Shown: positions 11,220 through 32,550 of the stretch, in pieces | How positions within the stretch are numbered: position 1 is the stretch's first letter | Layout: each line of letters begins with the position of its first letter | Assembly: GCA_025351145.1 (NCBI GenBank) | Contig: JANXWM010000605.1 | Coordinates: 1 to 33,509, forward strand | DNA from: Chitinophagaceae bacterium | GTDB taxonomy: Bacteria > Bacteroidota > Bacteroidia > Chitinophagales > Chitinophagaceae | Direction: 5' to 3' | DNA length: 33,509 bases | Notes under the pieces: generated by a model | Told to the model about the DNA's origin: nothing | The model's database searches: none | The model's input: the letters and a program-made list of their open reading frames with translations, nothing else | Program-made: the position numbers and the translations under genes

Positions 11220-12698
11220 TTAAAATGTATACCCGATTCTAAATTTTAAAGCTTGTCCGGCAGGTATCTGCTTTGTTGCAAGAAAGTCATATAATATCTG
11301 CATATTTCCTTGCTTCTTTCCAACCTTATATTTTTTACTTATTCCCATCAGTACACTGCGTTGCCAAACATCTACATTCTTTAAATAATTAAGATTGCTA
11401 AACCGTTGCAGGTAGTTATATTCAAATCCTCCCGTTATCCAGATACTGCCTTTTGCTTTAATATCTATATAACTTCTTAGGCCAATGCCTTCACTGGTAA
11501 AATGGATATTACTAAATCCGCTACCCCAGCCAAGTTTATAACTTGCACCAATGCCTATAATACTTTTGTCATTCAGTTTATATCCGGCAGTTAAAGCTAT
11601 GTCGCTGGTAACTGGTAACAGGTAGCGGCTCTTTTCGCTTTGAATATTAAAGCCATATTCAAACCTTTGTAAAAATGATTTTGTATGCTGGCTGTTAGGT
11701 TTAAAATCAGGCATCGTCATATCGCTGCTCCCTCCGCCTAATTTGTTCAGCTTATCTTTCAGAACACTCATTTGCTGTTGTGCAGCTCCCAATTGTTGCT
11801 GCATATACTGTTGAGGGTTCATGCCGCCTCCACCAGAAGCAATTGTATTACCTAAACGCTGTTGTACCTGCTGTTGTACTAATGTTCTTGTCTGTAATCC
11901 AACCAAAGCCTGCGGTGTACCATAGTTTTCAGGTGTAGGAAATAAAAAGGCTAAATAACTATGCTTCTGCATAAAGTTTTGAAAAGCTGGCAGGTTTCTT
12001 ACTGTAGCTAAAAGCTTTTCTTCCATCTTCTTTTTATCATGCAGTATTGCTTTGTACTCCGTTAAGCGTTGCTGGTAATAATATACTTCTTTATTATACC
12101 CAAGCAATTCTTTGGCAAAGCCGGTATTGGCAAGGGTTGCTTTCAGTGTTGCTTCTCTTTCTTTGATGAAGCTTTGTATATCATTGGCCTGTTGCAATCT
12201 TGCCTGTAGCTCCTGCAATTGGCTGCTTACCTCTTGTATCTGTTGTAATTTATCACCAGTGATTCCCTGTAGATTAAGATTGGGTTGATTAAGAAACCTC
12301 ATCAATGTTTGCATGCTGTCAATGCCGGGTATATATTCGGTTAAGGGATGTGCAATTGTTTTATTTACCGATAATGTTAGTTTAGCCTGTAGCTCCTGGT
12401 ATTTACTTTGTGTCTGTGAAAATAATTCCTTGGCTTTGGAACTGTCGACCCCCTGTAATTTGCTTTGCAGTGTTGCTTCTTTCTGCTGCATGCGTTTTAG
12501 CAGTTTCTCACTTTGTGATTGCACACTATTAGTGACCTTATTGTATTGGTTGGTGAGGGATGTAATGGATTTAGAAGATATGTTTTGAATTGATTGGGTA
12601 AGTTGTTTTTGTTGGGATTGCAGAGTGGTATCAATACCTTGTGCATGAGACAAAACACTGATTAGAAAGGTACAGGCAAGAGTTATAACGAACCGCAT
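11220..12698 (-). CDS. Secreted coiled-coil protein with C-terminal outer-membrane beta-barrel-like region
   Basis: The track ORF starts at 12764, but the internal Met at 12698 gives a proper signal peptide (MRFVITLACTFLISVLSHAQG). Gln-rich coiled coil, then GYKLNDKSIIGIGASYKLGWG...ALKFRIGYTF ending in an aromatic residue. Confidence 0.75.
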   Translation of the reverse strand: MRFVITLACTFLISVLSHAQGIDTTLQSQQKQLTQSIQNISSKSITSLTNQYNKVTNSVQSQSEKLLKRMQQKEATLQSKLQGVDSSKAKELFSQTQSKYQELQAKLTLSVNKTIAHPLTEYIPGIDSMQTLMRFLNQPNLNLQGITGDKLQQIQEVSSQLQELQARLQQANDIQSFIKEREATLKATLANTGFAKELLGYNKEVYYYQQRLTEYKAILHDKKKMEEKLLATVRNLPAFQNFMQKHSYLAFLFPTPENYGTPQALVGLQTRTLVQQQVQQRLGNTIASGGGGMNPQQYMQQQLGAAQQQMSVLKDKLNKLGGGSSDMTMPDFKPNSQHTKSFLQRFEYGFNIQSEKSRYLLPVTSDIALTAGYKLNDKSIIGIGASYKLGWGSGFSNIHFTSEGIGLRSYIDIKAKGSIWITGGFEYNYLQRFSNLNYLKNVDVWQRSVLMGISKKYKVGKKQGNMQILYDFLATKQIPAGQALKFRIGYTF

Positions 12699-16663: not shown

Positions 16664-17233
16664 ATGGCTCAAAATAAACTCTTTGATGATATTGACGATT
16701 GGGATAAAATAGACCTCGACAATGCAAAGTTTATTTTGGAAGAAGCGCGTACTTATGTCAGCTTTGTTATAGATGTGGGGGATAAGATAACTGATAAGGC
16801 ATTTAAAATTTTAGCACTACTCTTTCCGATTGAAAGTGCATTAATTGCTTTTGTGATTAATGAGAAAATGAAAGGCTGTATTCAAGATTATACAATAGCA
16901 AACTTGTTAATTTTTGTGGTGACGAGTATCGTGGTGATTATGTTTTATTTAGGTAAAATTGTATTGCCGAGATCATTTATGCCCAAGGGAAGGGCGCCAG
17001 TTGAAATTTGTAAAAATAAAGAGTTGCTTGGTATTCCTTCGGACGGGAGTACCGATGTTGCCGCTTTAAAATTAGCCCTGGTGTTAAATGAAATTGAAAA
17101 TTCACAAGCCAAAATTTATTTTAATAACAACCAGAATACTGTACGGATTACTGCTTTAAAACTATCCATGATGGCACTCGGTGGCATTGTCGTCATCGCC
17201 GTACTTACCCTGTGGGTTCACTTCTTTTTCTGA
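16664..17233 (+). CDS. Membrane protein of unknown function, about 3 TM segments
   Basis: Hydrophobic segments ILALLFPIESALIAFVI, LLIFVVTSIVVIMFYLG and MMALGGIVVIAVLTLWVHFFF. Confidence 0.8.
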   Translation: MAQNKLFDDIDDWDKIDLDNAKFILEEARTYVSFVIDVGDKITDKAFKILALLFPIESALIAFVINEKMKGCIQDYTIANLLIFVVTSIVVIMFYLGKIVLPRSFMPKGRAPVEICKNKELLGIPSDGSTDVAALKLALVLNEIENSQAKIYFNNNQNTVRITALKLSMMALGGIVVIAVLTLWVHFFF

Positions 17234-17635
17234 TCTTGTGTTTTTTATTACCGAATTTCATTCTGCGAACCACCTGGTATCATTGGATATGTTCCAGGCA
17301 GAGTTTCAGGTGTTGTGGGCCTGGGCTTTGGAGGAGGATCTTGCATAAAGTATACATTTAAATTTCATTCAAAACATAAATGTACATCATTTTTCAAATC
17401 CCTGGAAGCTATACTCCGCACAGTATAAGTTTGTGCATAAAGGAAAGCTGCCCGCACTATGCTGACTAAAGAACAAAGCGTACAAGTGTCACGCTTTGAG
17501 AGCCGGGATGAAACAAGTGACACAACAGGCGATGATAGTAGCAATACAGCTAAGTTCAAAATAAGCATTGCACATTTTTATGCTGCACGCAGTATAGTTT
17601 GATAAGTTTTCACATTTGACATTCCTTGCCCTCCG

Positions 17636-18943
17636 TTAATCAAATAAACCAGGCTCTCTTTGTTCAACATTTTTGGGTTGATAATTTTCAAGTATTGCTT
17701 CCTCAACCAGTGCTTTTTCACTGCCATATTTCTGTCTGGAATGTGCAATCACTAATTCTTTACTTGATTTATTTTGTTTGTGTGGTGGCAGGGTTAGCGC
17801 ACTAAAAGGTTTTGAAGTTGCGCCATCAATCATCAGTTTAATATACATGGCATATTTGGGAAGGTTCACAAAATCATTCTCACTAAATGGTGGATGAAAT
17901 TCTTTAACAAGATACTTTGCATCTTCTGCACCAATCCGAAAAGAGATGAGCGTGCCTACGTTTCCAAATATTGCAGCACGTATTTTTTCATGAATTTGGT
18001 CAATGTATTGGTGGGTTAAAAATAATGATAGCTTATACTTTCTTGCTTCGGCTAAGATGTCTGCTAAAGATAATGAGATGAATGAATGCATTTCGTCAAC
18101 ATACAGATAGAATGGAATTCTGTCAGCTTCTTTTTGAGTTGAACGATGCAATGCTGCTAATTGAATAGCGGTCACCAACATGCTGCCCATAATGGAAGAT
18201 GCGTCTTCACCAATTTCACCTTTAGATAAATTTACAATGAGTATTTTTCTTTCATCTAACACCGCTTGCATATTAAAACTGGTGGCCTTTTGTCCAACAA
18301 TATTGCTCAATGGAATACTGGTTATAAATATGCCGGTCTTATTAAGTATTGGAGTAATGGCTTCTGATTTTAATGCGGGGCTATATTTATCAAATTCATT
18401 CTTCCAGAATGAAATAATGTGTTGATTGGTTACATAGGTCAAAACATTATTTCTAAAATAGAAGTTGGTTAACAAGGGTTGGATGTCGAGCAAGGTGGCA
18501 CCAGGGTATTCGAGGAGGGTTAGCAGTGCATAGCGGAGGATATATTCCAATCGTGGCCCCCAGGAATCAGCCCATATCTTTCTGAAGGTTGATATCAGAC
18601 CTGCTGCCACTAAATGATGATCTGCAGGGTTAATACCACTTAAGGGATTGAATGCAATCGCATGTTCAACATCTTTTGGATTGAAATAGATGACATCAGC
18701 TATTCTATTTTCCGGGATATAGTGTAAAAGCGTTTCAGCAATGTCTCCATGCGGGTCTATGACGCAAAGTCCATTACCTCTTTCAATATCTGAAATAGCC
18801 ATGTTTAATAACAGGGTTGACTTCCCTACTCCCGTCTTTCCAATAACATAGATATGACCAAAGCGGTCAGCATCTTTAATGCCAAAGGGTTGATGTGTCT
18901 CTCTCCAATCAGTTATGCCAATGGGGGTGAGTTCTGACATCAA
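17636..18943 (-). CDS. TraG/VirD4-like P-loop ATPase (type IV coupling-protein-like)
   Basis: Walker A YVIGKTGVGKSTL, LCVIDPHGD, Walker B-like PFYLYVDEMHSF; paralogous to the 12845-15871 product. Confidence 0.9.
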   Translation of the reverse strand: MMSELTPIGITDWRETHQPFGIKDADRFGHIYVIGKTGVGKSTLLLNMAISDIERGNGLCVIDPHGDIAETLLHYIPENRIADVIYFNPKDVEHAIAFNPLSGINPADHHLVAAGLISTFRKIWADSWGPRLEYILRYALLTLLEYPGATLLDIQPLLTNFYFRNNVLTYVTNQHIISFWKNEFDKYSPALKSEAITPILNKTGIFITSIPLSNIVGQKATSFNMQAVLDERKILIVNLSKGEIGEDASSIMGSMLVTAIQLAALHRSTQKEADRIPFYLYVDEMHSFISLSLADILAEARKYKLSLFLTHQYIDQIHEKIRAAIFGNVGTLISFRIGAEDAKYLVKEFHPPFSENDFVNLPKYAMYIKLMIDGATSKPFSALTLPPHKQNKSSKELVIAHSRQKYGSEKALVEEAILENYQPKNVEQREPGLFD

Positions 18944-18970
18944 ATAATTATGCAGATTTTACAGAGTTTT

Positions 18971-19015
18971 TATAAGGCAGGGGAATTTGCGTTATAGACA
19001 AATTTCTCTTTCTTA
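18971..19015. promoter_or_regulatory. Divergent copy of the element-wide operator/leader motif (copy D plus, F minus)
   Basis: TATAAGGCAGGGGAATTTGCGTTATAGACAAATTTCTCTTTCTTA. Plus strand reads ATTTGCGTTATAGACAAATTTCTCTTTCTTA toward 19068; minus strand reads AATTTGTCTATAACGCAAATTCCCCTGCCTTATAA toward the ATPase start at 18943. Confidence 0.7.
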
Positions 19016-19067
19016 TTTTTTTAAATTCTTTTTGTAACACTGTGTATGTATCAGCAATAAGCATTCA

Positions 19068-19283
19068 ATGTTTGAATGCTTAGTCGTATATCAGGTGTAT
19101 TCAAAAGAACTAATTAATAGCATAATAATTTATTTTCAAGAACGGCATAACCAATCTATTTCCGAAGAGACAGCCGAAGGCTATTTAAATTCACTTGCTG
19201 ACTTATTTGGGGCCTTTGTAGCATTGGTCCGTGAACAGCAAAATTTGTATAATACTGATAATTCAGATACGATACAAGCGTAA
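19068..19283 (+). CDS. Small helical protein upstream of the serine recombinase
   Basis: 71-aa ORF (ELINSIIIYFQERHNQSISEETAEGYLNSLADLFGAFVALV), 11 bp upstream of the recombinase; preceded by the shared motif. Confidence 0.7.
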   Translation: MFECLVVYQVYSKELINSIIIYFQERHNQSISEETAEGYLNSLADLFGAFVALVREQQNLYNTDNSDTIQA

Positions 19284-19294
19284 GAAAAGCAACT

Positions 19295-20848
19295 ATGAAA
19301 TACGCTATTTATTGCAGGAAATCAACAGATACGGAAGACAAACAGGTACTGTCCCTTGAATCCCAGGAACAGGAGCTTGTAACACTGGCAAAAAAGGAAG
19401 ATTTAGAAGTCACCTTAATATTAAAAGAAAAGATGTCTGCTAAAGAACCTGGCCGTCCCATCTTTAATAAATTACTTGCCGCACTGAATAAGAAAAAAAT
19501 TGACGGTATTCTTTGCTGGAAAATTGATCGCCTCACGAGAAACCCCATTGACGGAGGGCAAATTCAATGGATGATGCAATCAGGGAAAATACAGTGTATC
19601 AAGACATTTGAAAGAAGCTATTATCCTTCTGATAATGTGCTGCTCATTAATATTGAGCAAGCGATGGCAACGCAATATATTAGAGATTTGAGCACCAATG
19701 TAAAGCGCGGAAATCGGGCAAAACTGGAACGCGGAGAATGGCCTAATCGGGCACCCTTTGGATATGTAAATGATAAAGCAGCTAAAACTATTATCGTTGA
19801 TAAAAGGGCGGCTAAATATGTGGTGCGAATTTTTCAATTATATGCAACTGGCGGATATACACTTAAAGAAATAACCAATACACTTTACCAGGAAGGCTTA
19901 CGAACAAAGGGCGGAAATAAAATGGGTAAAAGTCATATTCACCAAATTCTGTTTAATAAATTTTATTGTGGATTGATGGAAAAAGAAGTCAAAACATATC
20001 AGGGTACACATAAAGCGCTTATTTCAATTTCTCTCTATAACCAAGTCCAGGATATGCTGTTAGGCAGGCAACACCCCCGCCCCAAAAAACACGTATATGC
20101 AGCCAGAGGGTTCCTTAAATGTGCCTCCTGCGGTTGTATGTTAACGGGTGATACCAAGAAAGGGTATATCTATTACTACTGTACCAATGGCAAAGGGAAT
20201 TGTGAGCAGCACAAAAAATATTTGCGCTCTGAGGAAGTGGACAAGTTGATTGGAGATGTCTTACTTGAATTAAAATTTGACCTCACCGATATAGAGTTAG
20301 CAAGTCAGGCTTATGCACAGAAAAATCAGGCGCAAGGCAATACTATGCAATCCATATTGGAGAAGCTCACCATTGAGGTAAATATGCTGTTAGACAAAGA
20401 GTCTATGCTGGTTGATGGGTTTAGCTCTAAGATTATACGGGAAGAGGTCTATACCGCAAAAATGAAAGAAATAGAATATAAGCGATTAGAACTGAACCAA
20501 CAGATACGGCAAATCGAAGGAAAAAATGGAAAATCAGCAATTACTTTCGAACAGATTAAAAGTGTGTTTTTAAACGGTAATAAAGCCGCAGAATTGTATT
20601 CTACAGGTTCTGAGGAAGGAAAAAGAAATGTACTAATTAGTTTACTTTCGAACATCCATATTGAAAACCAAAAAGTCCTTAGTTACCAATTCAAAAGCCC
20701 ATTTGACTTACTGGCTAAAACGCCTAAAAATGCCAATTTATTTGCAAAGCTGACACTGATAGACGCTATCCGAAGTGCACTTCTCATAAGTTCTGATTGT
20801 TCAATCATAGAAATGCAGGATTATAGGTTATTACGAGAAACAGGATAA
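19295..20848 (+). CDS. Large serine recombinase (site-specific integrase)
   Basis: YAIYCRKSTD catalytic Ser region, GILCWKIDRLTRNPIDGG resolvase motif, recombinase domain, zinc ribbon CASCGCML...YYYCTNGKGNC, coiled coil. Confidence 0.96.
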   Translation: MKYAIYCRKSTDTEDKQVLSLESQEQELVTLAKKEDLEVTLILKEKMSAKEPGRPIFNKLLAALNKKKIDGILCWKIDRLTRNPIDGGQIQWMMQSGKIQCIKTFERSYYPSDNVLLINIEQAMATQYIRDLSTNVKRGNRAKLERGEWPNRAPFGYVNDKAAKTIIVDKRAAKYVVRIFQLYATGGYTLKEITNTLYQEGLRTKGGNKMGKSHIHQILFNKFYCGLMEKEVKTYQGTHKALISISLYNQVQDMLLGRQHPRPKKHVYAARGFLKCASCGCMLTGDTKKGYIYYYCTNGKGNCEQHKKYLRSEEVDKLIGDVLLELKFDLTDIELASQAYAQKNQAQGNTMQSILEKLTIEVNMLLDKESMLVDGFSSKIIREEVYTAKMKEIEYKRLELNQQIRQIEGKNGKSAITFEQIKSVFLNGNKAAELYSTGSEEGKRNVLISLLSNIHIENQKVLSYQFKSPFDLLAKTPKNANLFAKLTLIDAIRSALLISSDCSIIEMQDYRLLRETG

Positions 20849-20852
20849 GGGA

Positions 20853-20895
20853 GTTATCCACTGAATTTGTCTAATAGACAAATTTCCCTCCCTTA
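20853..20895 (+). promoter_or_regulatory. Element-wide operator/leader motif, copy A
   Basis: GTTATCCACTGAATTTGTCTAATAGACAAATTTCCCTCCCTTA, containing the perfect dyad AATTTGTCTA-A-TAGACAAATT; 33 bp upstream of an XRE gene. Confidence 0.75.
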
Positions 20896-20928
20896 TAAGT
20901 CATCTTATTATTTTCTATCATTTATTCT

Positions 20929-21186
20929 ATGAGAAATACAAACGTAAAATATCCAAATAACACCTTAAAAGAATATCGGTTACGAAGTGGGTTAACACAA
21001 GAACAGGTATCACAAAAACTTAACATGCAATGTGAAGGTAGATTGTCTCGTTGGGAAAAAGGACTATCGGTGCCGAGTCTTAGTAATCTCGGCAAACTCT
21101 CACAGATGTATCGGGTTAGCCCTGATCTGTTGTATCCTGAGATGTTTTTACATCAAGAGCCTGGTGTGCTTCCAGAAGCTGTGTAA
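20929..21186 (+). CDS. Small XRE-family HTH protein
   Basis: LKEYRLRSGLTQEQVSQKLNMQCEGRLSRWEKGLSVPSLSNLGKLSQMYRVSPDLLYPE. Confidence 0.9.
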   Translation: MRNTNVKYPNNTLKEYRLRSGLTQEQVSQKLNMQCEGRLSRWEKGLSVPSLSNLGKLSQMYRVSPDLLYPEMFLHQEPGVLPEAV

Positions 21187-21357
21187 ATGCTTCTTCGTTT
21201 CTTGAGGAAACTCTTTCATTTTCGGAATTGAGATACTGTAAATATTGCTCTTTGGCAGAAGAGGTCATAAATCTATTTTATAGATCAATCCTGAATTTCT
21301 AAAATTTGATTTTTCAATAAAGTATGTTATAGTGTTTTTAAACTCAAAACACATACT

Positions 21358-21930
21358 ATGGAAACCAATTTGGAAAAACTCAGCAACTTTCTGCATAGCA
21401 AGTATGGAGTACAGGTTATCATCAATGATGCTGTCATTGACGGAATCGAAATCGCAGAATTGGTAAACCGAAATATATTGATAAATAAACAATCCCGAGG
21501 AGAGGCAGAAATTCTATTTGTCATCGCTCACCTCTTTGGTCACATGGTACAGTTTTCACATTATGAAAACTATCAATATCTTGTCGAAAAAGTAGCAGAA
21601 CCGAAACCACTTCGCTTATCTACTGATTTCAGAAAATCATTTTATGAGTATGAAGTTGAAGCGTACAGTATTGGTAAGGGACTAATGGAAATAGCTTTAG
21701 GCCCAGAAATAGTAGCTATACTTGATGAGAAATATCAAATATATTTAGACACTGATTTCTTAAGCTATTGGGACTATCTCACGACCGGCAAGCAAGCTTC
21801 TGTCGCAGAGTTTAATACACTTCTGTTACACAATTACAGTAACTGGAAAGGTAACTATCCAAATCAACTTCCAACCATTCTTCCTCCTGACACGATTGTT
21901 TTTTCTTTAATGAGCACGAAGGTTTACTAA
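21358..21930 (+). CDS. ImmA/IrrE-like metallopeptidase-fold protein with degenerate active site
   Basis: EAEILFVIAHLFGHMVQFS (HxxGH frame with E replaced) followed by EYEVEAYSIGKGLM in the position of the third-ligand helix; close to an XRE gene. Confidence 0.75.
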   Translation: METNLEKLSNFLHSKYGVQVIINDAVIDGIEIAELVNRNILINKQSRGEAEILFVIAHLFGHMVQFSHYENYQYLVEKVAEPKPLRLSTDFRKSFYEYEVEAYSIGKGLMEIALGPEIVAILDEKYQIYLDTDFLSYWDYLTTGKQASVAEFNTLLLHNYSNWKGNYPNQLPTILPPDTIVFSLMSTKVY

Positions 21931-21933
21931 AAG

Positions 21934-21968
21934 ATCTCCTGATATTATTTAGGGGATCTTTTTTATTT
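21934..21968 (+). terminator. Terminator-like hairpin after the ImmA-like gene
   Basis: AAGATCTCCTGATATTATTTAGGGGATCTTTTTTATTTTTT hairpin plus T-tract. Confidence 0.65.
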
Positions 21969-22046
21969 TTTCAGACACTATTTCTACTAAAGTTCGAGTC
22001 CTGTTCTGGTTCCTTCTTTTTTATCACATCTAACAATTATTAGACA

Positions 22047-22080
22047 TTCAAAAAGCCTTATATTTCAAAGGCTTTTTGAA
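22047..22080. terminator. Strong inverted repeat, bidirectional terminator-like
   Basis: TTCAAAAAGCCTT-ATATTTCA-AAGGCTTTTTGAA, 13-bp perfect arms. Confidence 0.65.
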
Positions 22081-22110
22081 GTGAATTTATAAAATTACTA
22101 TTTGTAGCAA

Positions 22111-22209
22111 GTGCTGGCCTTGTGGGACGATATCGGAACATCTTTAACAATAAGCTCTGACTGCTTTGCTATTGGTGTAAGTAATTATACCAAACAAAAT
22201 ATAGCGTAA
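22111..22209 (+). pseudogene. Remnant of the 3' end of a second large serine recombinase
   Basis: Frame VLALWDDIGTSLTISSDCFAIGVSNYTKQNIA* aligns to the recombinase tail (L)IDAIRSALLISSDCSIIEMQDYRLLRETG*, with ISSDC shared; followed 5 nt after the stop by a copy of the motif that also follows the intact recombinase stop. Confidence 0.5.
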
Positions 22210-22214
22210 TCATA

Positions 22215-22257
22215 GTTATCCCCGGAATATGATGGTAAAGCAAATTTCTCTGCCTTA
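22215..22257 (+). promoter_or_regulatory. Orphan, degenerate copy E of the operator/leader motif
   Basis: GTTATCCCCGGAATATGATGGTAAAGCAAATTTCTCTGCCTTA; no plus-strand gene follows. Confidence 0.55.
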
Positions 22258-22358
22258 CATTCTATAAATTCTGTGGTCTGGGAGTATAACAGAAAAGGGT
22301 TTTTTTAAATTAGATGCCTTTGCTAAATGTACTAATGAAAATTGCTTGTTAAAAAAAA

Positions 22359-23258
22359 TTAAGAAATAATGCGATTTTTTTTAAGGTTGCGCCTTATTTC
22401 ATTAAAAGTCGTTTCTATTTTATCGCCTTCAAAATTAATGCACTGTAGCCCTGCTAAATTTGAAATTTCTTCAGATATATTTTCTTTTAAAATAATGACC
22501 TTATCAAATCCTAATTTGCCCTGAAATAATCCAGCTTCATGAATCACATTTTGACGTGCAATAAATTTACCATCAGCTAACTCGTCTTCAGCTGTAAATA
22601 TTAAGATTGCAAATACTGTTTCATTTAAAAATTCATCAAGAATTCTTATTATTGAATCGCCTGTTCTGGATTCTTTCTCAAAATACACAGTTTCCAATTC
22701 TAAATCGTTATCCAAAAAAAGTTGAATAGCTTGCCAAAGTTTACTCCGTCCGTGCCCAATAAATATTTTATTTTTTTTATTGCTCAAAGTTCCATTAGCC
22801 GATATTTTATTATCTTCTGAATGGGTAACAGCACTTTGATCGAATAATATTACGCTAGATAAAATACCACTTACTTTCTGTAATTGCACTGCCCCTGTTT
22901 TTACAGCATCATTAATGCTTCTGTATAAAAAAGTGCGACCATTAGTAATATGAGCAACTCTTTCAGCTTTTCCAGAAGTAACAAAATAAATCTTAAGAGA
23001 TGAGAACTCCCTCTCAAGTACTTCGGCCCATTCCAGTCCCAATAAACGATCATCTACAACTAATTCTTCACTGTCGGAACCATATTGACGAATATGTATC
23101 CAGGTACAGACTAGTTGATCAGGATGAAGTTGTGAGAGAATTTGCTTATAGTGCTCGGTTCCCCAGCATAAAATTGGATACTTTCCTTCTAGCCTAGTCG
23201 TGATAGTATTCTTGAAGTTTTCTTTTTCATCAATTATGATATGAAGAAATCTTTCCAT
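22359..23258 (-). CDS. TIR-like predicted nucleotide-binding protein (CAP12/Pycsar-effector TIR type) with N-terminal receiver-like region
   Basis: C-terminal NKIFIGHGRSKLWQAIQLFLDNDLELETVYFEKESRTGDSIIRILDEFL...AILIFTAEDELADGKFIARQNVIHEAGLFQGKLGFDKVIIL, matching the remembered PF10137-like pattern; N-terminal LLGLEWAEVLEREFSSLKIYFVTSGKAERVAHITNGRTFLYRSIND resembles a CheY-like beta4/beta5 region. Confidence 0.85.
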   Translation of the reverse strand: MERFLHIIIDEKENFKNTITTRLEGKYPILCWGTEHYKQILSQLHPDQLVCTWIHIRQYGSDSEELVVDDRLLGLEWAEVLEREFSSLKIYFVTSGKAERVAHITNGRTFLYRSINDAVKTGAVQLQKVSGILSSVILFDQSAVTHSEDNKISANGTLSNKKNKIFIGHGRSKLWQAIQLFLDNDLELETVYFEKESRTGDSIIRILDEFLNETVFAILIFTAEDELADGKFIARQNVIHEAGLFQGKLGFDKVIILKENISEEISNLAGLQCINFEGDKIETTFNEIRRNLKKNRIIS

Positions 23259-26200
23259 ATTTATTATTTAATATCGGTAAAGAAATTTCAAACCTGGTAA
23301 ATTCAGCATTATTTTCGTCGGTGATTACTTCAAATTTACCTTCGTAAAAAGATAAAATATCACTTATCCGTTTTATTCCATATCCTCCTGGAGTATTCCT
23401 ATCAAAGGCCTGATTTTGTTCAACGCAAAGTCTTATATAATTATTTTCGCATAGAAAATAATATTTTATGATCTTATTTTTTAAAACGTGTTTCTTAATG
23501 TTATCAAAGAAGAGGCTGTATACATTTTTAAGCATACTCTTATGAATTCCTACAATAAAAAAAGGGATCGCAATTTCCTCTCCCATCAATAGGTCACACA
23601 CAAATGATACATTATTAGTATTCCTTTTTTCAATAAACTCATTTAACTGCTCAACCCATATTGCTTTAAAGTTACACATAAAGTCAAAGAAAAATCTGAA
23701 AACATCAGATTCAACAGACATAATATCTACTTTTATAAATTCAAGTTTCCTGATTAGATATATACTGTTTGATTCAAGAAATTTCTGATTGTCGGAAAAA
23801 TATTCATCAAGTTCATTCCTCACTTTTATAAGAGAGTCTTCATCCCTTTCAGTAAAAATTTTTTTAAAAATTCCAGGTTTAAATGTGGCGAGAAAGTCTT
23901 TAAATGCCATCATATACTTAAGAATCTCGGTTATTTTCGGATGGATGTTATCTGACCACTCATGCAAATCAGCGTTCCTTTTATCAGATTTATCAACTTC
24001 ATTAATTAAATTCTCAATATGACTATCTAAACATTCATGGCCATTTTCTGTTTCTTCATTTTTGAAGATCTCGCACACTTTAATACTTGCTAAAGAAAAT
24101 ATTATTTCTTCTGGGTCGGGTGTTATTTCCAAAATGTTAAAAAGTTGACGAAAGCTCTGATATTGGTAGGACCGAATTGGGGAAGCTTTAAAAAGTTCTC
24201 TTACAGAAATATAGATTAATGTTCTAAACGCCCTATCGATTCTATCCTGATGAATACTCTCGCGGTCTATAAAATTTTTATATAAAAAGTAAGTAAGATA
24301 ATTAATTGGTATTTTTTCATCCTGAACATAATTTAAAACCAAATTTAAAAAGTCTACAGTACAGAATTCATAGCGGTCCAAAAAGGAATATATTTTTAAT
24401 AAAGATGTTTTGTCCCACAACGTTTCAGTTATTCCATTAAAAATCTGCTTCAGATAATTTTTTAGATTTTCAATTGCATTGTTTGATATATCGATTCTAT
24501 TTATCACGGTCAATAAATATGGTTCATGAAGAATCACTGCAATCATTGAATTATAATCCTCAAATAATAATTCCGCTTTTTCAATCATGTCATCAACATC
24601 GTCTTTATACAATCTATAGCTTTCATATTTCCCAATAAAATTTCTAAGAATAAATATTTTCTGCTTATTCAGTGATTTCGGAATTTTAGTAGGAATATTA
24701 ATTTCATCATTACTAGTTGTATCTTCTGACTTAATTTCGATCTTTCGATGAAGGATATATTCCTTTATGGTTTGTGAAATTGTTTTTAAATATATATTGT
24801 CAAGCTCCTTCTCTTCTTGTATAAAAGGAAATAAATTTGATCCTGCAGGGTAAACCGGAATATTTATATTTATTCCAAAAAATATTTTTATAGGAATTTC
24901 TCCTCGCTTTGATTTAATCTTTTTGATTCTAGACAAAAATTCTCTTTGATAGTCATCTAGTCTGGCAATTATTGAAAGGACTATTATTTCGGACACGGGC
25001 AAAAAGCAAACACAATCTATCATCTGGACTAATGTCTCCCCTGACCATGATCCATCATCTAGAATGAGCACTCTTGAATTGCTCTTTTGTTTGCTTATGC
25101 TATTAAGAAATTTTGGCGGAAATGTAAATCTCCAGCCTTTGGGTGTATTTATTCTTGGAATAGGAAAGACTTCCACGTTTTTTTCACCGTTAGATTCTTT
25201 GCATATACTCGGAATATCATCAATGATTTCCATGGCACTGGAAAGAAAAGGAATAAATATAAAATCGATTGATAAATCAGGTTTTGAATATTCTATTTCC
25301 TGCTGCTGAATATTAACCTGGATACTTTTTAATAAATCTTCAATAGTTGTATTTGTCGATTTTATAATATCAATGTTTTTTTCAATCTTAATAATTGCTT
25401 TGTTGGGTATACCTTTTTGATATTTTGCATTCGAAATATTTGATTTTAAAATATCAAATTTTTTCATTAATAAATTACTTTCTTTTTTAAGTTCGTCAAT
25501 TTGTTTGCCTAGGTTACTTCTGTCATAATCGCTTTTTTCTTCATTTATACTTTTGAAGATTTTTTTTAAAAATCTATACCCATTGCTTTTATCAACTCTA
25601 TAGAGTTTTGAAGCGAAAATATAATAGGTATGATGCGTTGTATTATGTCGCATATGTCCAATATATAATACAGTTTCTACATCGATCAATGAAAAAAAGT
25701 CTTCCAATTTGAAGAGAATGTTAAGTGTTTTTCCAGTCTTTTTTTTGAGTGTTATCGGAGCATTAATAATGGGACTTATCCATATAACCTTTTTTTTATC
25801 AGGGGGCTCCAAAAACAATTCAGTAGGAGATTCAATTAGTGAGACAATATCATCATTTATTGAAACATATCTATCTTTTTTTATTCTGCAGTCAACAATT
25901 GTAAGAAAGGCACAAACTTCAATTGATTTCGAAACGCTTGTTAAACTATTTTTTATTTTGTTCGATAACCCTCCTGTAGAAATTACATCATTGACTACAA
26001 GAACCGAATCTCCATCATGAATATCTTTAAAAGGTTCTTCTTTTTCAAATTCATAATAATTAGAAAGAGGAATTAAATATAATGGAGTATACTCAAAGTC
26101 ATCACTTAGTTCGGTGTAAATATCTTTTACCTCTTTACCCAAAAGTTCGCTACTTAATGTAACTGTCAATATCTTATTAGGCCTTCTTTTTATGTGATCA

Positions 26201-28359
26201 TATGAAAATAATTTTTCATATTTCAAGATTAAATGGGTTGCCAAAAATCTTCTATATTCTTTCAGATATATTTTTTCAATAAAACTTAAAAACCTTTCTT
26301 GATAAAACCCGTTTGAAGCTAAAAACCAATTTTCATTTTCATCACTATGCAAAACTTTATTATAATTATGTGATTTACCTTCATCATCAGTATAAATAAG
26401 TTGCTTGAATGATATGCCATTATTTGATATCTCATTATTTATTATAGTATTTTGATATTCAATCAACGAATTAATAACATCAAAAAAATGAGTAACCTCA
26501 AATTTTAAATATGGTTTTCTTTCTTTAATTTGAATTGACAAAAAATGATTTTCGAAAATGTCATTTTGAAGATGTGCTATTTCAATCACATCTTCTTTTT
26601 TAGTCCAAATTTTATTTAAGATTTTTTGATTATTCAGGTTTTTCATACCTATCCAAAAAATTTTCAAATCCGGCAGTATGCAAGGAATTGGTTTTGACAA
26701 GTATTCAATCTCTGTCTTATAAATACCTTTAAATACTTTTTCCTTCGATTTTTCTTCAACTTCATAAATTGAATGATTAAGATCAGCAAATCCCTTAAGC
26801 GTTTTATAATCAGTAATATTAAAAACAATTGCTTGAACTTTGTTATTTATAAAGGAAGAGAGAGACAGATAATATAACAGATTTCGGCTAAATTCATGAT
26901 ATTTAATATCAATTCCAGCATAATCAAATATTACTAATGTATTTTCAATTGTTTCATTGAAATCCTTTAGGTGGCCCGAAATTTCTTTAAATATAAATGC
27001 CGTAATGTCGTTTTTTTCAGAAAAATCATTTTGGGCTTTAGTGTAAAGATCCAACAGACAAATAACAGTAATTTTAGCATTGTGCCGACTACTTTCTACT
27101 AGAAGTCTTGTGTCTTTTAATTCTATCGTTTCATTTTCTCTAGATGGAAAAATAATTGAAATCATTGTCCCTGGAAAAAATGTTGTGTTTTCGCCATATG
27201 TCACAATTTCGTCTAAGGAAATATTTGATTCACTAAAATCATAAATTATTTTACCATTTCCACTTTTCACCATTAGAAGGCCTTTATTTCTTCTTATTAT
27301 ATCCTTAATAACATATAAGCCACGTGGCAAAAAATCATGAAATAAAAGGTTTTCTCCAAATTCATTTCTAGATGTTGAAAGTAAAAACGAATATTCTAAT
27401 ATCAATGAATCAATATTTTTGGTATTTACTGATTCTTTAATTTCTTTTAGAATTTCAAAATGATCTGATCGTAATAATCTGGCATATTTTTCTTTCTTTT
27501 GGTTGTAATTTGAATCTGTGTAATAGTTTTTTCTAAGAGACTCTGGGATAGTAATTCCAAAATCTAAAAATGTATAGACTAAAAAGGATTTGTTTCTGTT
27601 TCGTTCGTAAAACTTTCGTTCTTCAAATCCTTTTTCATTCATTCTTCTATTCCAAACCCAATCGTTAATTTTTTCGTCAGCAATCTTCTTTTCATAGCCT
27701 ATTGAAATATAACATTCTTTTATTTTATCACTTTTGTCACCGTATCCGTGATGACAGCTATTGGTATAAAGTTCTTTGGTAATTATATAACTTAGAGAAT
27801 TGTTATCTATTTGATTCAAGCCTTCATTTTTTAAAGAATCCTTAAGTGTCTCAAGGAGAGAAATTTTCTCATTAATATTAGCTTGTATAATTTCAAATTC
27901 TTTGGAAGAGGTTTCAATTTCGTAATTGGATGCTTTTATCCTAAAAAATGGGATAAAATTTTCATTATAAAGTGGAATGAAGTCTTCTTTAATCTTCATC
28001 CCATTATTTTCAAATTCAACTAAGTTATTTCCTTTCTCATCATTAAAAACGTTCAATAAAGAACACTTGTATACCAAATTAGTGTAACATCTTTGTCTCC
28101 TACTGAATGTATTAGAAAGAGTACTAATTGTCGTAGCATCCTGAAGCCTAATCTTTACTTTTTTCTTTTTTTGAATAAGCTGAAATATCCAACCATAGAT
28201 AAAAGTTATTTCTGATATCGAAATCCATTCTAATTTTCTCATATCAAAATTTATCAATTTGCAATTGAAAGTATGCCGCCATTTCGACTCTTCGAGTCGG
28301 TTCATATCAACTGAAGTGAATTTTATTTCCAAGTCAATATCAACTGTATCTTGATTCAT
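23230..28359 (-). CDS. 1709-aa multidomain protein: STAS-like(?)-GHKL ATPase-PRTase-like-PRTase-like-coiled/helical-GHKL ATPase
   Basis: GHKL1: ELYTNSCHHGYGD (N-box), YTFLDFGITIPESL (G1), PRGLYVIKDIIRRNKGLLMVKSGNG and FPGTMISIIFP. PRPP-loop-like motifs SVLVVNDVISTGGL (aa 785-798) and RVLILDDGSWSGETL (aa 1096-1110). GHKL2: LFFDNIKKH and NTPGGYGIKRISDILSFYEGKFEV...FEISLP. Confidence 0.88.
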   Translation of the reverse strand: MNQDTVDIDLEIKFTSVDMNRLEESKWRHTFNCKLINFDMRKLEWISISEITFIYGWIFQLIQKKKKVKIRLQDATTISTLSNTFSRRQRCYTNLVYKCSLLNVFNDEKGNNLVEFENNGMKIKEDFIPLYNENFIPFFRIKASNYEIETSSKEFEIIQANINEKISLLETLKDSLKNEGLNQIDNNSLSYIITKELYTNSCHHGYGDKSDKIKECYISIGYEKKIADEKINDWVWNRRMNEKGFEERKFYERNRNKSFLVYTFLDFGITIPESLRKNYYTDSNYNQKKEKYARLLRSDHFEILKEIKESVNTKNIDSLILEYSFLLSTSRNEFGENLLFHDFLPRGLYVIKDIIRRNKGLLMVKSGNGKIIYDFSESNISLDEIVTYGENTTFFPGTMISIIFPSRENETIELKDTRLLVESSRHNAKITVICLLDLYTKAQNDFSEKNDITAFIFKEISGHLKDFNETIENTLVIFDYAGIDIKYHEFSRNLLYYLSLSSFINNKVQAIVFNITDYKTLKGFADLNHSIYEVEEKSKEKVFKGIYKTEIEYLSKPIPCILPDLKIFWIGMKNLNNQKILNKIWTKKEDVIEIAHLQNDIFENHFLSIQIKERKPYLKFEVTHFFDVINSLIEYQNTIINNEISNNGISFKQLIYTDDEGKSHNYNKVLHSDENENWFLASNGFYQERFLSFIEKIYLKEYRRFLATHLILKYEKLFSYDHIKRRPNKILTVTLSSELLGKEVKDIYTELSDDFEYTPLYLIPLSNYYEFEKEEPFKDIHDGDSVLVVNDVISTGGLSNKIKNSLTSVSKSIEVCAFLTIVDCRIKKDRYVSINDDIVSLIESPTELFLEPPDKKKVIWISPIINAPITLKKKTGKTLNILFKLEDFFSLIDVETVLYIGHMRHNTTHHTYYIFASKLYRVDKSNGYRFLKKIFKSINEEKSDYDRSNLGKQIDELKKESNLLMKKFDILKSNISNAKYQKGIPNKAIIKIEKNIDIIKSTNTTIEDLLKSIQVNIQQQEIEYSKPDLSIDFIFIPFLSSAMEIIDDIPSICKESNGEKNVEVFPIPRINTPKGWRFTFPPKFLNSISKQKSNSRVLILDDGSWSGETLVQMIDCVCFLPVSEIIVLSIIARLDDYQREFLSRIKKIKSKRGEIPIKIFFGININIPVYPAGSNLFPFIQEEKELDNIYLKTISQTIKEYILHRKIEIKSEDTTSNDEINIPTKIPKSLNKQKIFILRNFIGKYESYRLYKDDVDDMIEKAELLFEDYNSMIAVILHEPYLLTVINRIDISNNAIENLKNYLKQIFNGITETLWDKTSLLKIYSFLDRYEFCTVDFLNLVLNYVQDEKIPINYLTYFLYKNFIDRESIHQDRIDRAFRTLIYISVRELFKASPIRSYQYQSFRQLFNILEITPDPEEIIFSLASIKVCEIFKNEETENGHECLDSHIENLINEVDKSDKRNADLHEWSDNIHPKITEILKYMMAFKDFLATFKPGIFKKIFTERDEDSLIKVRNELDEYFSDNQKFLESNSIYLIRKLEFIKVDIMSVESDVFRFFFDFMCNFKAIWVEQLNEFIEKRNTNNVSFVCDLLMGEEIAIPFFIVGIHKSMLKNVYSLFFDNIKKHVLKNKIIKYYFLCENNYIRLCVEQNQAFDRNTPGGYGIKRISDILSFYEGKFEVITDENNAEFTRFEISLPILNNKYGKISSYHN

Positions 28360-28476
28360 AAAATAGTTTATCTAACAAAATAGGGAATTAAATTAAAAAT
28401 CAAAAATGTATAAATGGCTTTGAGTTGCTCCTTGACTTTTTTTAATTCTTGTTTAATGATAGGAAAACGAAAAAAT

Positions 28477-28728
28477 ATGAGTCGAGTATGGTATTTGCTT
28501 TATAATGATTTTGATCCCTCAAAAAATATGCTTTCTACAGCTCAAATAAGCTTAAAAAAAAGGCTTTTAGCAAAAAATGAAATTGAGGCTAGAATTGAGG
28601 GATGCCAAAAGATAGCAACCCTGCTTATGTCAAAAGGTATGTTTAAGGCCTCGGACAATATTGGTTATCCTAATTCTTTTAAGATTGTCTTAGAAATTAA
28701 TATAACTGGTTTAAATCCTTCTGGTTAA
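28477..28728 (+). CDS. Small protein of unknown function, divergent from the giant gene
   Basis: Track ORF begins at 28414; the internal start MSRVWYLLYNDFDPSKNMLSTAQISLKKRLL... looks more protein-like. Followed 14 bp later by a strong terminator. Confidence 0.5.
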   Translation: MSRVWYLLYNDFDPSKNMLSTAQISLKKRLLAKNEIEARIEGCQKIATLLMSKGMFKASDNIGYPNSFKIVLEINITGLNPSG

Positions 28729-28742
28729 TAACATGCTTTATC

Positions 28743-28768
28743 AAGACTGCCAATATATTGGCAGTCTT
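28743..28768. terminator. Perfect 26-bp palindrome, terminator
   Basis: AAGACTGCCAATATATTGGCAGTCTT followed by TT, just after the 28728 stop. Confidence 0.75.
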
Positions 28769-28823
28769 TTAAATCTAATTGGAAGTTGGCTATAACATCA
28801 AGTAAATAAAGGAGATTTTATAA

Positions 28824-28865
28824 GTTATCCACAGATTTGCTTTATAGACAAATTTCCCTCCCTTA
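28824..28865 (+). promoter_or_regulatory. Element-wide operator/leader motif, copy B
   Basis: GTTATCCACAGATTTGCTTTATAGACAAATTTCCCTCCCTTA, 32 bp upstream of an XRE gene; includes TTATCCACA. Confidence 0.75.
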
Positions 28866-28897
28866 TTTCCTCTTTTGTTTTTGCATAGACTTTATGC

Positions 28898-29182
28898 ATG
28901 GAGATAGGTCGGTTTCCTAACAAGTTAAAAAAGTATCGAAGCATCACCGGGTATTCGCAAAAGAAAGTGGCGCAGTTGCTTGGTTTGAAAGATACCAGCC
29001 TCATTTCCCGATGGGAAAAAGGAGATTCGATACCAGGTACAGCGCATATATTTTATCTCAGCCGAATATACCACACCCTGCCACATATTCTTTTACATTC
29101 TTTCTGGAGCAGTATACAACCGGAAGAATACTTGTTGACTCAGGATGAGTCATTTAATACTAACGAAGCAATGAATCTATGA
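28898..29182 (+). CDS. Small XRE-family HTH protein
   Basis: FPNKLKKYRSITGYSQKKVAQLLGLKDTSLISRWEKGDSIPGTAHIFYLSRIYHTLPHILL; related to the 20929-21186 product. Confidence 0.9.
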   Translation: MEIGRFPNKLKKYRSITGYSQKKVAQLLGLKDTSLISRWEKGDSIPGTAHIFYLSRIYHTLPHILLHSFWSSIQPEEYLLTQDESFNTNEAMNL

Positions 29183-29212
29183 AAACAAAATAGCAGCTTC
29201 TGCTGCGTGTGT

Positions 29213-29238
29213 GAAAAGGACATGGTTGTGTCCTTTTC
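29213..29238 (+). terminator. Terminator-like hairpin
   Basis: GAAAAGGACA-TGGTTG-TGTCCTTTTC followed by TTTTG. Confidence 0.7.
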
Positions 29239-29293
29239 TTTTGACCTTTTTTGTATCGGCAAATTATTCTTTAAAAAACTGGATATAAAAACG

Positions 29294-29339
29294 AACGATA
29301 ACGTAAAACGATAACGAATGATTAAAAGAACGATCGTTC
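29294..29339. repeat. Iteron-like tandem AACGATAACG (x2) plus palindrome GAACGATCGTTC
   Basis: AACGATAACG at 29294-29303 and 29307-29316; GAACGATCGTTC at 29328-29339. Confidence 0.7.
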
Positions 29340-29388
29340 CTTAACCGATACAACAAAAGGGATTATTAGTTAGGAAGGAATAGTATCT

Positions 29389-29628
29389 ATGTATAGTGAT
29401 TATGATCCACATGAAATAAAACTCGCCCATGAAATCTCGGAAACGCTCAATGACCAGAACTCCCTGGCACTCCACCTGCAGTATGTGCGCAAGTTCAAAG
29501 AAGGGTATCTGCGAAAGATTCTCAACAAAGTGATGTCGCTTGATGAAAAGAAGATTCGGAAAAACAGAGCAGCACTGTATACCTTTTTAGTTAACCAGGG
29601 TGCAAGCCATGGCAGTGCTGGGGATTAG
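29389..29628 (+). CDS. Small hypothetical protein coupled to the RuvC-like gene
   Basis: 79-aa ORF whose 3' end overlaps the start of the next gene; basic helical composition. Confidence 0.7.
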   Translation: MYSDYDPHEIKLAHEISETLNDQNSLALHLQYVRKFKEGYLRKILNKVMSLDEKKIRKNRAALYTFLVNQGASHGSAGD

Positions 29629-30082
29629 TACGAACACACGGCTCCTGGGGTTGGCAATTATCAATAGGAATGGTTTAGCAGAGTACTCAATTCGTCTGTA
29701 TAAATCTTCCTGGTCGCCGTCGAAAGCAAACCTGATGATCACCAGCCTGGAGCCGTGTGTGCGGAGATACTCTATCAAAAAAGTTGTTTTGTCAATACCG
29801 CCTGTACATCACCAAACAAAAGAATTCAATAATCTGATTTCTTGTTTCAAAGCATACTTCGCAGAGTTGCATATCCCGGTGTACACAGAAACAGGTGTAG
29901 CACTGAATCGACTTTGTTTGGAGCATGGCAAGAAAACGAAAAAAGCCATCATGAAATCGCTGGTTGAACGATTCCCTGAATTGCGCTTATGTTATCAAAA
30001 GGAACTGCGGAATAAAAACAAATATTATGTGAAGTTATTTGAGGCAGTTGGGGTGGCAGTCCTCCATGAAACAGTGAAATAA
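29609..30082 (+). CDS. RuvC/RNase H-fold-like protein with altered catalytic positions
   Basis: MAVLGISTNTRLLGLAIINRNGLAEYSIRLYKSSW ... IKKVVLSIPP ... YYVKLFEAVGVAVLHE matches the RuvC strand pattern. Track start is 29600; MAVLG at 29609 is an alternative start. Confidence 0.65.
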   Translation: MAVLGISTNTRLLGLAIINRNGLAEYSIRLYKSSWSPSKANLMITSLEPCVRRYSIKKVVLSIPPVHHQTKEFNNLISCFKAYFAELHIPVYTETGVALNRLCLEHGKKTKKAIMKSLVERFPELRLCYQKELRNKNKYYVKLFEAVGVAVLHETVK

Positions 30083-30088
30083 TGCAAC

Positions 30089-30114
30089 AAAGACAGGGCT
30101 CCCGCTCTGTCTTT
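30089..30114 (+). terminator. Terminator-like hairpin
   Basis: AAAGACAG...CTGTCTTT followed by TG, directly after the RuvC-like gene. Confidence 0.65.
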
Positions 30115-30115
30115 T

Positions 30116-30158
30116 GTTATCCCCCATGTTTGCGTATTAGACAAATTTCCCTCCCTTA
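30116..30158 (+). promoter_or_regulatory. Element-wide operator/leader motif, copy C
   Basis: GTTATCCCCCATGTTTGCGTATTAGACAAATTTCCCTCCCTTA, 64 bp upstream of the ArdC-like gene. Confidence 0.75.
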
Positions 30159-30222
30159 CAGAACCTCTCTGACTTACATACACTGCTCTATGAAATAAGT
30201 TCATTCACAAAAATTATCTACT

Positions 30223-31140
30223 ATGCAAACAAACAACACGCGTGATGTGTACACGCTGGTGACGAACCAAATCATTGCACAATTAGAAAAGGGTGTAATC
30301 CCCTGGCGCAAGCCCTGGAAAGAAGCGGGCATGCCGCAGAACCTGGTTTCTAAACGGCCATACCGCGGTATCAATCTCTGGCTCCTGGCATGTTTAGGAT
30401 ATACCACGAATCTCTTTCTGACCCATAACCAGCTGACGCAAATTGGTGGCAAGGTGAAGAAGGGTGAAAAGGGCCATTTAGTGGTTTTTTGGAAAGTGGT
30501 TGATAATACAAAGGAAGAAAAAGAAGCAGCAACGGATACAGCAAAGAAAACAACCTTGCTGCGGTATTACTGGGTGTTTAACGTGGAGCAATGTCAAGAC
30601 ATCACCGGCTACCTCATTGAATCTCCTGAGCAGTTTAATCACGTGATTTTGCCCTGCGAAAATGTGGTATCAAGCATGCCCCATCAACCGGCCATCCAGT
30701 TCAAAGAACCTGATGCCTATTACCATCCCGGCAAAGATTTCATCAACATGCCGAAGATGAAAACGTTTATCAATTCAGAAGCCTATTATGCAACACTTTT
30801 CCATGAGCTGGTACACAGTACCGGACACAAAAGCCGGTTGGATCGCAAAGAAGTGCAGTCCATGACACCCTTTGGATCAGACATTTATTCAACCGAAGAA
30901 ATTGTTGCTGAGCTGGGTACCTGTTATCTGACATCTCTCACTGGTATTGCACCAATGACGTTTGAGAACAATGCTGCCTATATCCAAGGCTGGATTGAAC
31001 GGTTACAAAATAACCCCAGTGTCATTGTCTATGCCTCTACGCAAGCGCAAAAAGCTACAGATTATATCTTGAATGTGCAGCCGGAAGAAACGGAAAGTGA
31101 GGTGACAGAATCAGATGCGACGGTTGAAGCGACTGCCTAA
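30223..31140 (+). CDS. ArdC-like antirestriction protein (ArdC N-terminal ssDNA-binding region plus zincin)
   Basis: YTLVTNQIIAQLEKGVIPWRKPW...SKRPYRGINLWLL...YYWVFNVEQC...ALFHELVHSTGHKSRLDR (HExxH). Confidence 0.93.
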   Translation: MQTNNTRDVYTLVTNQIIAQLEKGVIPWRKPWKEAGMPQNLVSKRPYRGINLWLLACLGYTTNLFLTHNQLTQIGGKVKKGEKGHLVVFWKVVDNTKEEKEAATDTAKKTTLLRYYWVFNVEQCQDITGYLIESPEQFNHVILPCENVVSSMPHQPAIQFKEPDAYYHPGKDFINMPKMKTFINSEAYYATLFHELVHSTGHKSRLDRKEVQSMTPFGSDIYSTEEIVAELGTCYLTSLTGIAPMTFENNAAYIQGWIERLQNNPSVIVYASTQAQKATDYILNVQPEETESEVTESDATVEATA

Positions 31141-31157
31141 GTTTGTGTAATAATTAC

Positions 31158-31186
31158 AAAACCTGAAATATTTATTTTCAGGTTTT
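31158..31186 (+). terminator. Rho-independent terminator after the ArdC-like gene
   Basis: AAAACCTGAAA-TATTTAT-TTTCAGGTTTT TTTG. Confidence 0.75.
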
Positions 31187-31282
31187 TTGTTTTGATTCCT
31201 AAAGACTCTTTAAGAGTATAATACTTTTGAATATAGTGTGAGTTTGATGACCTTTTTTCTAATCTTTTCATCCATAAAAAAA

Positions 31283-31306
31283 CTTAGTGAAAGTTGTTTC
31301 ACTAAG
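31283..31306 (-). terminator. Terminator-like hairpin on the minus strand
   Basis: CTTAGTGAAA-CAAC-TTTCACTAAG followed by TTTTTTTATGG on the minus strand, downstream of the 31455-32105 gene. Confidence 0.6.
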
Positions 31307-31454
31307 CTTTAAGAAAACTTATTACTAGAAGATTTAAAAATGGAAATGGTTAAATAGTATAATACAAATTAAAAGTGCATGATAATACACATAAAAAAGC
31401 TCTATTATTTCCACTGTTAAAGGCCCATAAATACTCAGCCTTTTCTTATCATAT

Positions 31455-32105
31455 TTAAAATGATTTCCCTTTTATTGTAGATTCAAATTTCATTTTAGCG
31501 TCCACTTTCAAAATTCTTTGATTTTCTTTTTCATGCATTTTAGTCCATTTGATCGCGATTTGTTGAAAGTTAACATAAGCTCTCCTGTCAACATTACGTT
31601 GTTTGTAATCAACATAGCTTTCTGTCCATTTAAAGAAAGATATAAGATTAAACCCGTCGTCATCATAACAAATTTGTTCATCAAAAACTTCCTTATAAAT
31701 ACCAATTGCCATTCTTTCATAAAAATTAAATATTTTAATGACAATTTTCTTCAATCGAATTTCTTCTTCTGGAGTTAATTTTTCCTCTTCTAAAATCTCA
31801 AGTAATTTTTTTTCTTTTGTGAATTCAAAAAAGTCTTTCTTGAAAAAATCTTTAAGTTCCCACAGCAAAGGATGCAATTCGTGACTGATATTTTGCAGGC
31901 TAAAATCCATTGCCGCCTTTCTTTTACTATAATGTAGATTAATCCTTATCTGAAAATAAACTAACAATACTCCCAAAAAAACAAAGTAGAAACCAATAAC
32001 CGTAAGATATTCAGGCAAAAGAAAATTAATAAATTTAGGTAATAACCACATAATTCCTATCGCAATAGCTGATAATGATATTAAGTATATTAATATTCTC
32101 CGCAT
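31455..32105 (-). CDS. Membrane-anchored protein, DUF4760-like
   Basis: Two N-terminal TM segments (ILIYLISLSAIAIGIMWLL, LTVIGFYFVFLGVLLVYFQI), then a helical cytoplasmic region. Confidence 0.75.
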   Translation of the reverse strand: MRRILIYLISLSAIAIGIMWLLPKFINFLLPEYLTVIGFYFVFLGVLLVYFQIRINLHYSKRKAAMDFSLQNISHELHPLLWELKDFFKKDFFEFTKEKKLLEILEEEKLTPEEEIRLKKIVIKIFNFYERMAIGIYKEVFDEQICYDDDGFNLISFFKWTESYVDYKQRNVDRRAYVNFQQIAIKWTKMHEKENQRILKVDAKMKFESTIKGKSF

Positions 32106-32138
32106 ATTGTCAATTTAGATACAATAAGTTTATTTAGG

Positions 32139-32501: not shown

Positions 32502-32525
32502 GAAATATTTTTTCTAAAAGTAACA

Positions 32526-32550
32526 CAAACTGGATAAAGTATCCAATTTG
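32526..32550. promoter_or_regulatory. Dyad upstream of the XRE gene, candidate autoregulatory operator
   Basis: CAAACTGGATA-AAG-TATCCAATTTG: 10 of 11 arm positions complementary. Confidence 0.55.

Follow-up and report, generated by a model that had tools for sequence, protein, structure and literature searches.

The stretch of DNA analyzed here (the window, 33,509 nucleotides in all) carries a large serine recombinase gene and, more than one kilobase past its stop, a short open frame that resembles the end of the same gene and is followed by the same sequence motif. The question raised by the locus is how the end of a recombinase gene came to lie between unrelated genes. The segment 22114-22257 is probably the junction of two cassettes, the recombinase attaching at codon 485/486 of its own gene; comparison with related elements suggests an enzyme inserting defence cassettes into the end of the gene that encodes it.

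Organization of the window

Features are given in map order, with window coordinates.

17636-18943, minus strand: conjugation-type coupling ATPase, 435 aa, conserved core gene adjoining the recombinase (Pfam TrwB_AAD_bind, 1.4e-8)
18970-19015, unstranded: motif copy S1, a dyad with one half-site per direction, between the divergent ATPase gene (minus) and recombinase operon (plus)
19295-20848, plus strand: large serine recombinase, 517 aa (Pfam Resolvase 1.5e-20, Recombinase 3.4e-15, Zn_ribbon_recom 1.5e-8)
20740-20755, plus strand: putative attachment (crossover) region, about residues 483-487 (from tRNA starts in relatives and start of homology)
20750-20848, plus strand: present C-terminal tail of the recombinase, residues 486-517, and stop (from homology to the remnant)
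20853-20895, plus strand: motif copy S2, promoter-like, before XREa
20929-21186, plus strand: XREa, HTH regulator, first gene of putative cassette 1 (Pfam HTH_3, 1.4e-11)
21358-21930, plus strand: ImmA-like protein, 190 aa, putative cassette 1 cargo (HLFGH motif by eye, no Pfam match)
22113/22114, plus strand: putative junction of cassettes 1 and 2 (start of tail homology)
22114-22209, plus strand: putative displaced recombinase-tail remnant, open frame of 32 codons with its stop (tail homology)
22215-22257, plus strand: motif copy S3, decayed and orphan, with no plus-strand gene after it
22359-23258, minus strand: TIR effector of CAP12/Pycsar type, putative cassette 2 cargo (Pfam CAP12-PCTIR_TIR, 5.9e-24)
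23230-28359, minus strand: 1709-aa protein, putative cassette 2 cargo, paired with the TIR gene
28823-28865, plus strand: motif copy S4, before the core XREb operon
28898-30082, plus strand: core operon of XREb, 79-aa and 160-aa proteins, conserved together in most related elements
30116-30158, plus strand: motif copy S5, before ArdC
30223-31140, plus strand: ArdC anti-restriction protein, core gene (Pfam ArdcN, 2.6e-31)

Homologues of the coupling ATPase, 55-76% identical, reside in most related elements examined; coupling-type ATPases are the sole conjugation-type genes recognized, the contig being incomplete. The 79-aa and 160-aa proteins (29389-30082) are kept with XREb in most elements and belong to no Pfam family; a RuvC-like label for the 160-aa protein found no Pfam support and was dropped. 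No Rfam match was obtained in 17000-33509. The 190-aa ImmA-like protein features, by eye only, HLFGH in place of the HExxH of ImmA-type proteases, and is possibly inactive. L015, a 4387-bp MAG contig assigned to a Cytophagales bacterium, is identical to window positions 20285-24671; at 100% identity it says nothing about variation, and was not counted as an independent relative.

A recombinase tail downstream of the recombinase gene

Translation of the frame 22111-22209 gives VLALWDDIGTSLTISSDCFAIGVSNYTKQNIA*. The best ungapped alignment of this frame to the recombinase tail (LALWDDIGTSLTISSDCFAIGVSNY vs. LTLIDAIRSALLISSDCSIIEMQDY) extends over 25 codons, 12 of which are identical, and has a BLOSUM62 score of 51. 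The preliminary description had reported a gap-free alignment with about 10 identities in 21 positions; the match is real, and slightly longer than stated. In 3000 Markov shuffles of the local sequence the highest score was 41, never 51, which puts the similarity well above local chance; the runner-up unrelated match to the tail, over six frames of the whole window, scores 36. The remnant was also recovered by tblastn when the 75-aa tail was compared to the whole contig, at E = 0.010; for a short stretch adjoining the motif, the probability of a chance match is far smaller than this value. Nucleotide identity between remnant and tail is 41/75, divided by codon position into 14, 17 and 10 of 25, as expected if the similarity had been kept as protein.

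The recombinase and remnant frames stop at 20846-20848 and 22207-22209, respectively, and GTTATCC starts at 20853 and 22215, 4 and 5 nt past the two stops, the shared motif following in both places as first reported. At the sequence level, the homology of 22114-22209 to the recombinase tail is thus confirmed, and two tail-plus-motif junctions enclose the XRE/ImmA-like block. The evidence for the remnant found in the window appears good locally and moderate globally: taken alone the window makes a weak case, because the similarity is only 48%, the contig-wide E is 0.010, the palindrome flanking other junctions is absent or decayed, and a second XREa is missing.

The probable attachment point of the recombinase

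By its domains the window enzyme is a large serine recombinase, the Resolvase catalytic domain, the recombinase domain and the zinc ribbon being all present according to Pfam; R8, S10 and other residues are invariant in the recombinase alignment. Its closest relatives, 61% identical, come from two metagenome bins, one of Patescibacteria, and its near relatives in general reside in metagenome bins, Patescibacteria mostly. In 16 of 16 loci, including near relatives and several relatives of the same family as the window, a tRNA gene found by ARAGORN on the opposite strand overlaps the 3' end of the recombinase gene. Aligned to the window protein, the tRNA of L012, L013, L014, L016 and L017 starts at the position of W 485 (L011 was left out of this count because of a repeat inserted in its tail). 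The homology between tail and remnant in the window starts at recombinase residue 486 (W), one codon from the tRNA crossover of the relatives. The remnant begins, therefore, at the attachment point of the enzyme, a coincidence that lies outside the original observation and ties the remnant to recombinase attachment. As judged by comparison, the tRNA crossovers coinciding with the tail start, the crossover would fall inside the coding sequence and change the C-terminus.

Residues 495-517 are of low confidence in the predicted recombinase structure; the tail may not belong to the folded body, although few relatives align to it either. The repeat in L011 is a 172-nt direct repeat found three times (240-411, 2693-2864, 7919-8090), one copy being inside the recombinase 3' end, just before a tRNA-Tyr gene; it may be that DNA accretes at the attachment site in this way too. 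A segment resembling a tRNA, at 21992-22012 of the window, was discarded, as ARAGORN found no tRNA there and a search of the genome allowing 3 mismatches gave no further copy.

A tree built from recombinase bodies places the window enzyme next to L011/L012 as their sister (98/98), among tRNA-integrating enzymes of Patescibacteria type; the genes around it belong, by contrast, to the core of elements from the same family as the window. The grouping with enzymes from Patescibacteria bins suggests either transfer across phyla or misbinned contigs. Recombinases with remnants are scattered in the tree, the label requiring six changes, as many as shuffled labels do; either the arrangement arose repeatedly, or recombinases were exchanged between elements. 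The tree serves as a guide only, since the recombinase bodies were truncated at 470-485 residues and three loci are missing from it.

Tail remnants in related elements

One to three remnants each are present in five or more other elements of the same bacterial family, and in two weaker cases. L103 has three (E 5e-18, 4e-17 and 2e-5), L106 two (7e-12 and 2e-5), L071 and L107 one each (1e-24 and 2e-18); the weaker cases are L066 (2e-6) and L108 (3e-4, at the contig end). L106 and L107 are two contigs of the same genome, G303. The tail of L065 has its second copy on L077, another contig of the same genome. Counting the present tail, the arrays hold four copies in L103, three in L106, two in L107 and in L071; the window has two, one of them weak. 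Scored against a matrix of 12 tails, every remnant fits best the tail of its own element, except that at the contig end of L108, which fits the related L066 tail type.

In L071 (genome G223), recombinase tail, promoter, XREa and cargo are followed by a 599-nt repeat, 82% identical, which begins in the tail coding region at TAATGTGCACC and spans the stop, the promoter and a second XREa. The repeat in L107 measures 630 nt and reaches into XREa, identity in the L071 and L107 repeats being 82-83%. In L103 (G302) the boundary of the remnants lies near TTGCGGGGAAGATTATGT. In L071, L103 and L107, XREa-type genes follow either the recombinase or a tail remnant on its 3' side, and they recur along the L103 and L107 arrays. 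In L103, L106, L071 and L107, homology starts abruptly at one position of the recombinase 3' end and runs toward the stop; in the cases aligned, no relationship is seen on the upstream side of the boundary. Such a fixed start disfavours the random decay of full genes, and is better explained by a former tail displaced at a site-specific junction.

No remnant was found in L102, L105, L114, L070, L067, L068 and L104, which is compatible with single-cassette or empty elements but no proof of them; in L066-L068, core XREb comes soon after the recombinase, with little between. Two loci of one genome, L123 and L107, are 93% identical over recombinase, tail, promoter and XREa, and differ in the cargo past XREa. 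Cargo can thus also change past the attachment point, homologous recombination being a possible route and a likely source of extra exchange. Searches at the genus level for empty or polymorphic arrays (genera of G302, G303 and G223) gave no second copy for the recombinase of L103 or of L071, and one partial second copy, in G303, for the L107 type. Excision, circular forms and plus/minus pairs of arrays identical in all else were not seen. Fragments of a coupling ATPase gene occur within the second cassette region of L107 (about 11941-12289), and L115 carries tandem serine recombinase genes (4385-9322), 68.6% identical over 1401 nt.

For 6 of the 10 remnants outside the window, the cassette side of the junction bears a palindrome, with arms of six or more, whose end is no farther than 5 nt from the boundary, compared to 1.4% of random positions; the binomial probability, about 1e-9, should be taken as a rough indication, because the test came after the pattern had been noticed and remnants of one array are not independent. 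Palindromes such as TTGTTATTAATAACAA lie directly before the junction in L103, L106, L071, L066 and L108. Attachment arm, terminator and regulator site are all possible roles.

Proposed serial insertion at the end of the recombinase gene

The attachment point, which in relatives is joined to a tRNA gene, would here be joined to a module made up by tail, stop, promoter-like motif, XRE gene and cargo. A circular cassette would recombine at the attachment codon; the enzyme would keep its catalytic and DNA-binding domains and receive the incoming tail, while the former tail would end up as a remnant downstream of the new cargo. The newest cassette would then adjoin the recombinase, older ones lying farther off. 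Read in this way, cassette 1 would be formed by XREa and the ImmA-like gene (20750-22113), and cassette 2, old and decayed, by the old tail, a decayed promoter and the pair of TIR and 1709-aa genes (22114 to about 28800), having lost its XREa; the conserved core genes would come after it. Homology, fixed boundary, coincidence with tRNA crossovers, repeated order and defence cargo are what the comparison of sequences brings to this reading.

The scar of a second related element, proposed in the preliminary description, would correspond to a complete element in tandem with a recombinase of its own, of which only the last codons escaped decay or deletion. The remnant is indeed a diverged tail with a protein-like codon pattern, and tandems of related recombinases do exist, as in L115; yet remnants in L103, L106, L107 and L071 all start at one fixed position of the recombinase 3' end, and that of the window where the tRNA crossover of the relatives lies. 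We regard this origin as unlikely. Homology of the remnant and bracketing of the XRE/ImmA-like block are thus retained from the earlier inference; a decayed second recombinase is not supported.

Slightly less probable still is a tandem duplication, or homologous recombination between related elements, that copied tail, promoter and XRE gene with no part played by site-specific recombination. Repeats of 600 nt could recombine homologously, and L123 and L107, alike through XREa and divergent in cargo, are what such exchange would leave; against it, the repeated unit starts in the same part of the gene across several unrelated repeat types, the cassette-side palindrome recurs in 6/10 cases, and the window remnant starts at the attachment codon.

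The shared motif

The 43-nt motif has five members in the window, all on the plus strand; no comparable copy was found by a core-pattern search of the other contigs of the genome, and no match in viral contigs. The gene next to S3 encodes the TIR protein, on the opposite strand. A dyad similar to S1 lies 5' of the recombinase in L070 (G219). The motif is found 5' of XREb, ArdC, the ATPase and the recombinase operon in L065, L069, L070 and L071, and in elements of the same family (G219, G223, G262) is placed mostly about 20 nt before a TATACACT-like box. Since copies occur before XREb, before ArdC, and between two divergent genes, the motif is not specific to recombinase tails. From its positions we take it to be a promoter or operator common to core genes, and not a junction or attachment site.

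That the five copies (18970, 20853, 22215, 28823, 30116) are attachment sites of the recombinase, each delimiting a cassette, is accordingly very improbable. The motif is partly dyadic, has one repeat orientation, and in L065 stands at either end of the recombinase gene; but relatives carry their copies 5' of the same core genes, and a single motif half serves each direction where genes diverge, and the motif copies were dropped as cassette ends. A fortuitous tail similarity, 22111-22209 being unrelated non-coding DNA, deserves hardly any credence in spite of the contig-wide E of merely 0.010, given the outcome of the local shuffles, the position relative to motif and stop, a start that falls on the attachment codon, and the recurrence of the arrangement across several further elements.

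Defence genes between the junctions

Defence genes sit, by comparison, between junctions. A Gabija system lies between junctions in L103 (GajA, E 4.6e-165; GajB, 1.8e-125), and another is found in L065 (6.2e-228 and 9.9e-187); L071 has Shedu (1.9e-23), L107 and L111 feature OLD/UvrD pairs, and the window carries the CAP12/Pycsar-type TIR, matched by PADLOC to PDC-S35 (8e-20) and PycTIR (1e-14). Several cargo proteins belong to no family. The 1709-aa protein has no significant Pfam or PADLOC family; motifs resembling phosphoribosyltransferase and GHKL domains were noted by eye, Pfam Pribosyltran scoring below the cut-off (E 0.0015). A homologue was found only in G071 (C34, 34% identical) among 339 genomes, and the gene is not, therefore, to be listed as widespread cargo.

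Relationship to known systems

In integrons a recombinase gene is followed by an array of cassettes, new cassettes being added next to the recombinase; the enzyme is a tyrosine recombinase, and the attC sites are folded. Serial cassettes downstream of a recombinase, with a common junction sequence, are found as well in L103, L106, L107 and L071, and weakly in the window. In contrast to integrons, a serine recombinase, which would itself be altered, stands here in place of the tyrosine integrase IntI. Large serine recombinases integrated at tRNA genes belong to the same family as the window enzyme, and have their attachment at the recombinase 3' end in the 16 relatives; these join a host tRNA, whereas the window enzyme would join the tail of another cassette. 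We incline, by a little, to the view that the arrays are a platform for defence cassettes comparable to integrons, on which a large serine recombinase lands in the end of its own gene and has its C-terminus rewritten with each cassette, possibly with altered specificity or activity.

Staphylococcal and enterococcal cassette chromosomes (SCC, ECC) rely on large serine recombinases; their cargo, which varies, enters the 3' end of a gene and is accompanied by attachment sites in several copies (PMC6222049). A repetition of such sites, with cargo in between, is seen here at the level of sequence. SCC/ECC insert into rlmH, a host gene, and carry ccrAB, whereas here junctions lie in recombinase 3' ends and not in rlmH, and the cassettes would bring in a new tail, promoter and XRE gene. 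In myxophage Mx8, attP lies inside the integrase gene, and integration yields a recombinant gene with a new 3' end (PMC6070905). Mx8 differs in being a single phage integration in chromosomal attB, with no cassette array, and the likeness drawn here is one of attachment layout. A full-text literature search of partial coverage returned no description of a cassette array of this kind; an earlier description is possible.

If the reading of serial insertion is correct, these bacteria would have a dedicated capture system which collects defence genes. The junctions would record the order of capture, with recent cassettes near the recombinase and displaced tails ahead of the older ones. A search for unknown defence cassettes could use recombinase tails that recur upstream of XRE genes as its signature, candidate cargo including the unannotated genes in L103 and L107 and the 1709-aa protein of the window. 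By swapping its C-terminus each time a cassette is inserted, a recombinase would modify itself in a way that lends itself to testing.
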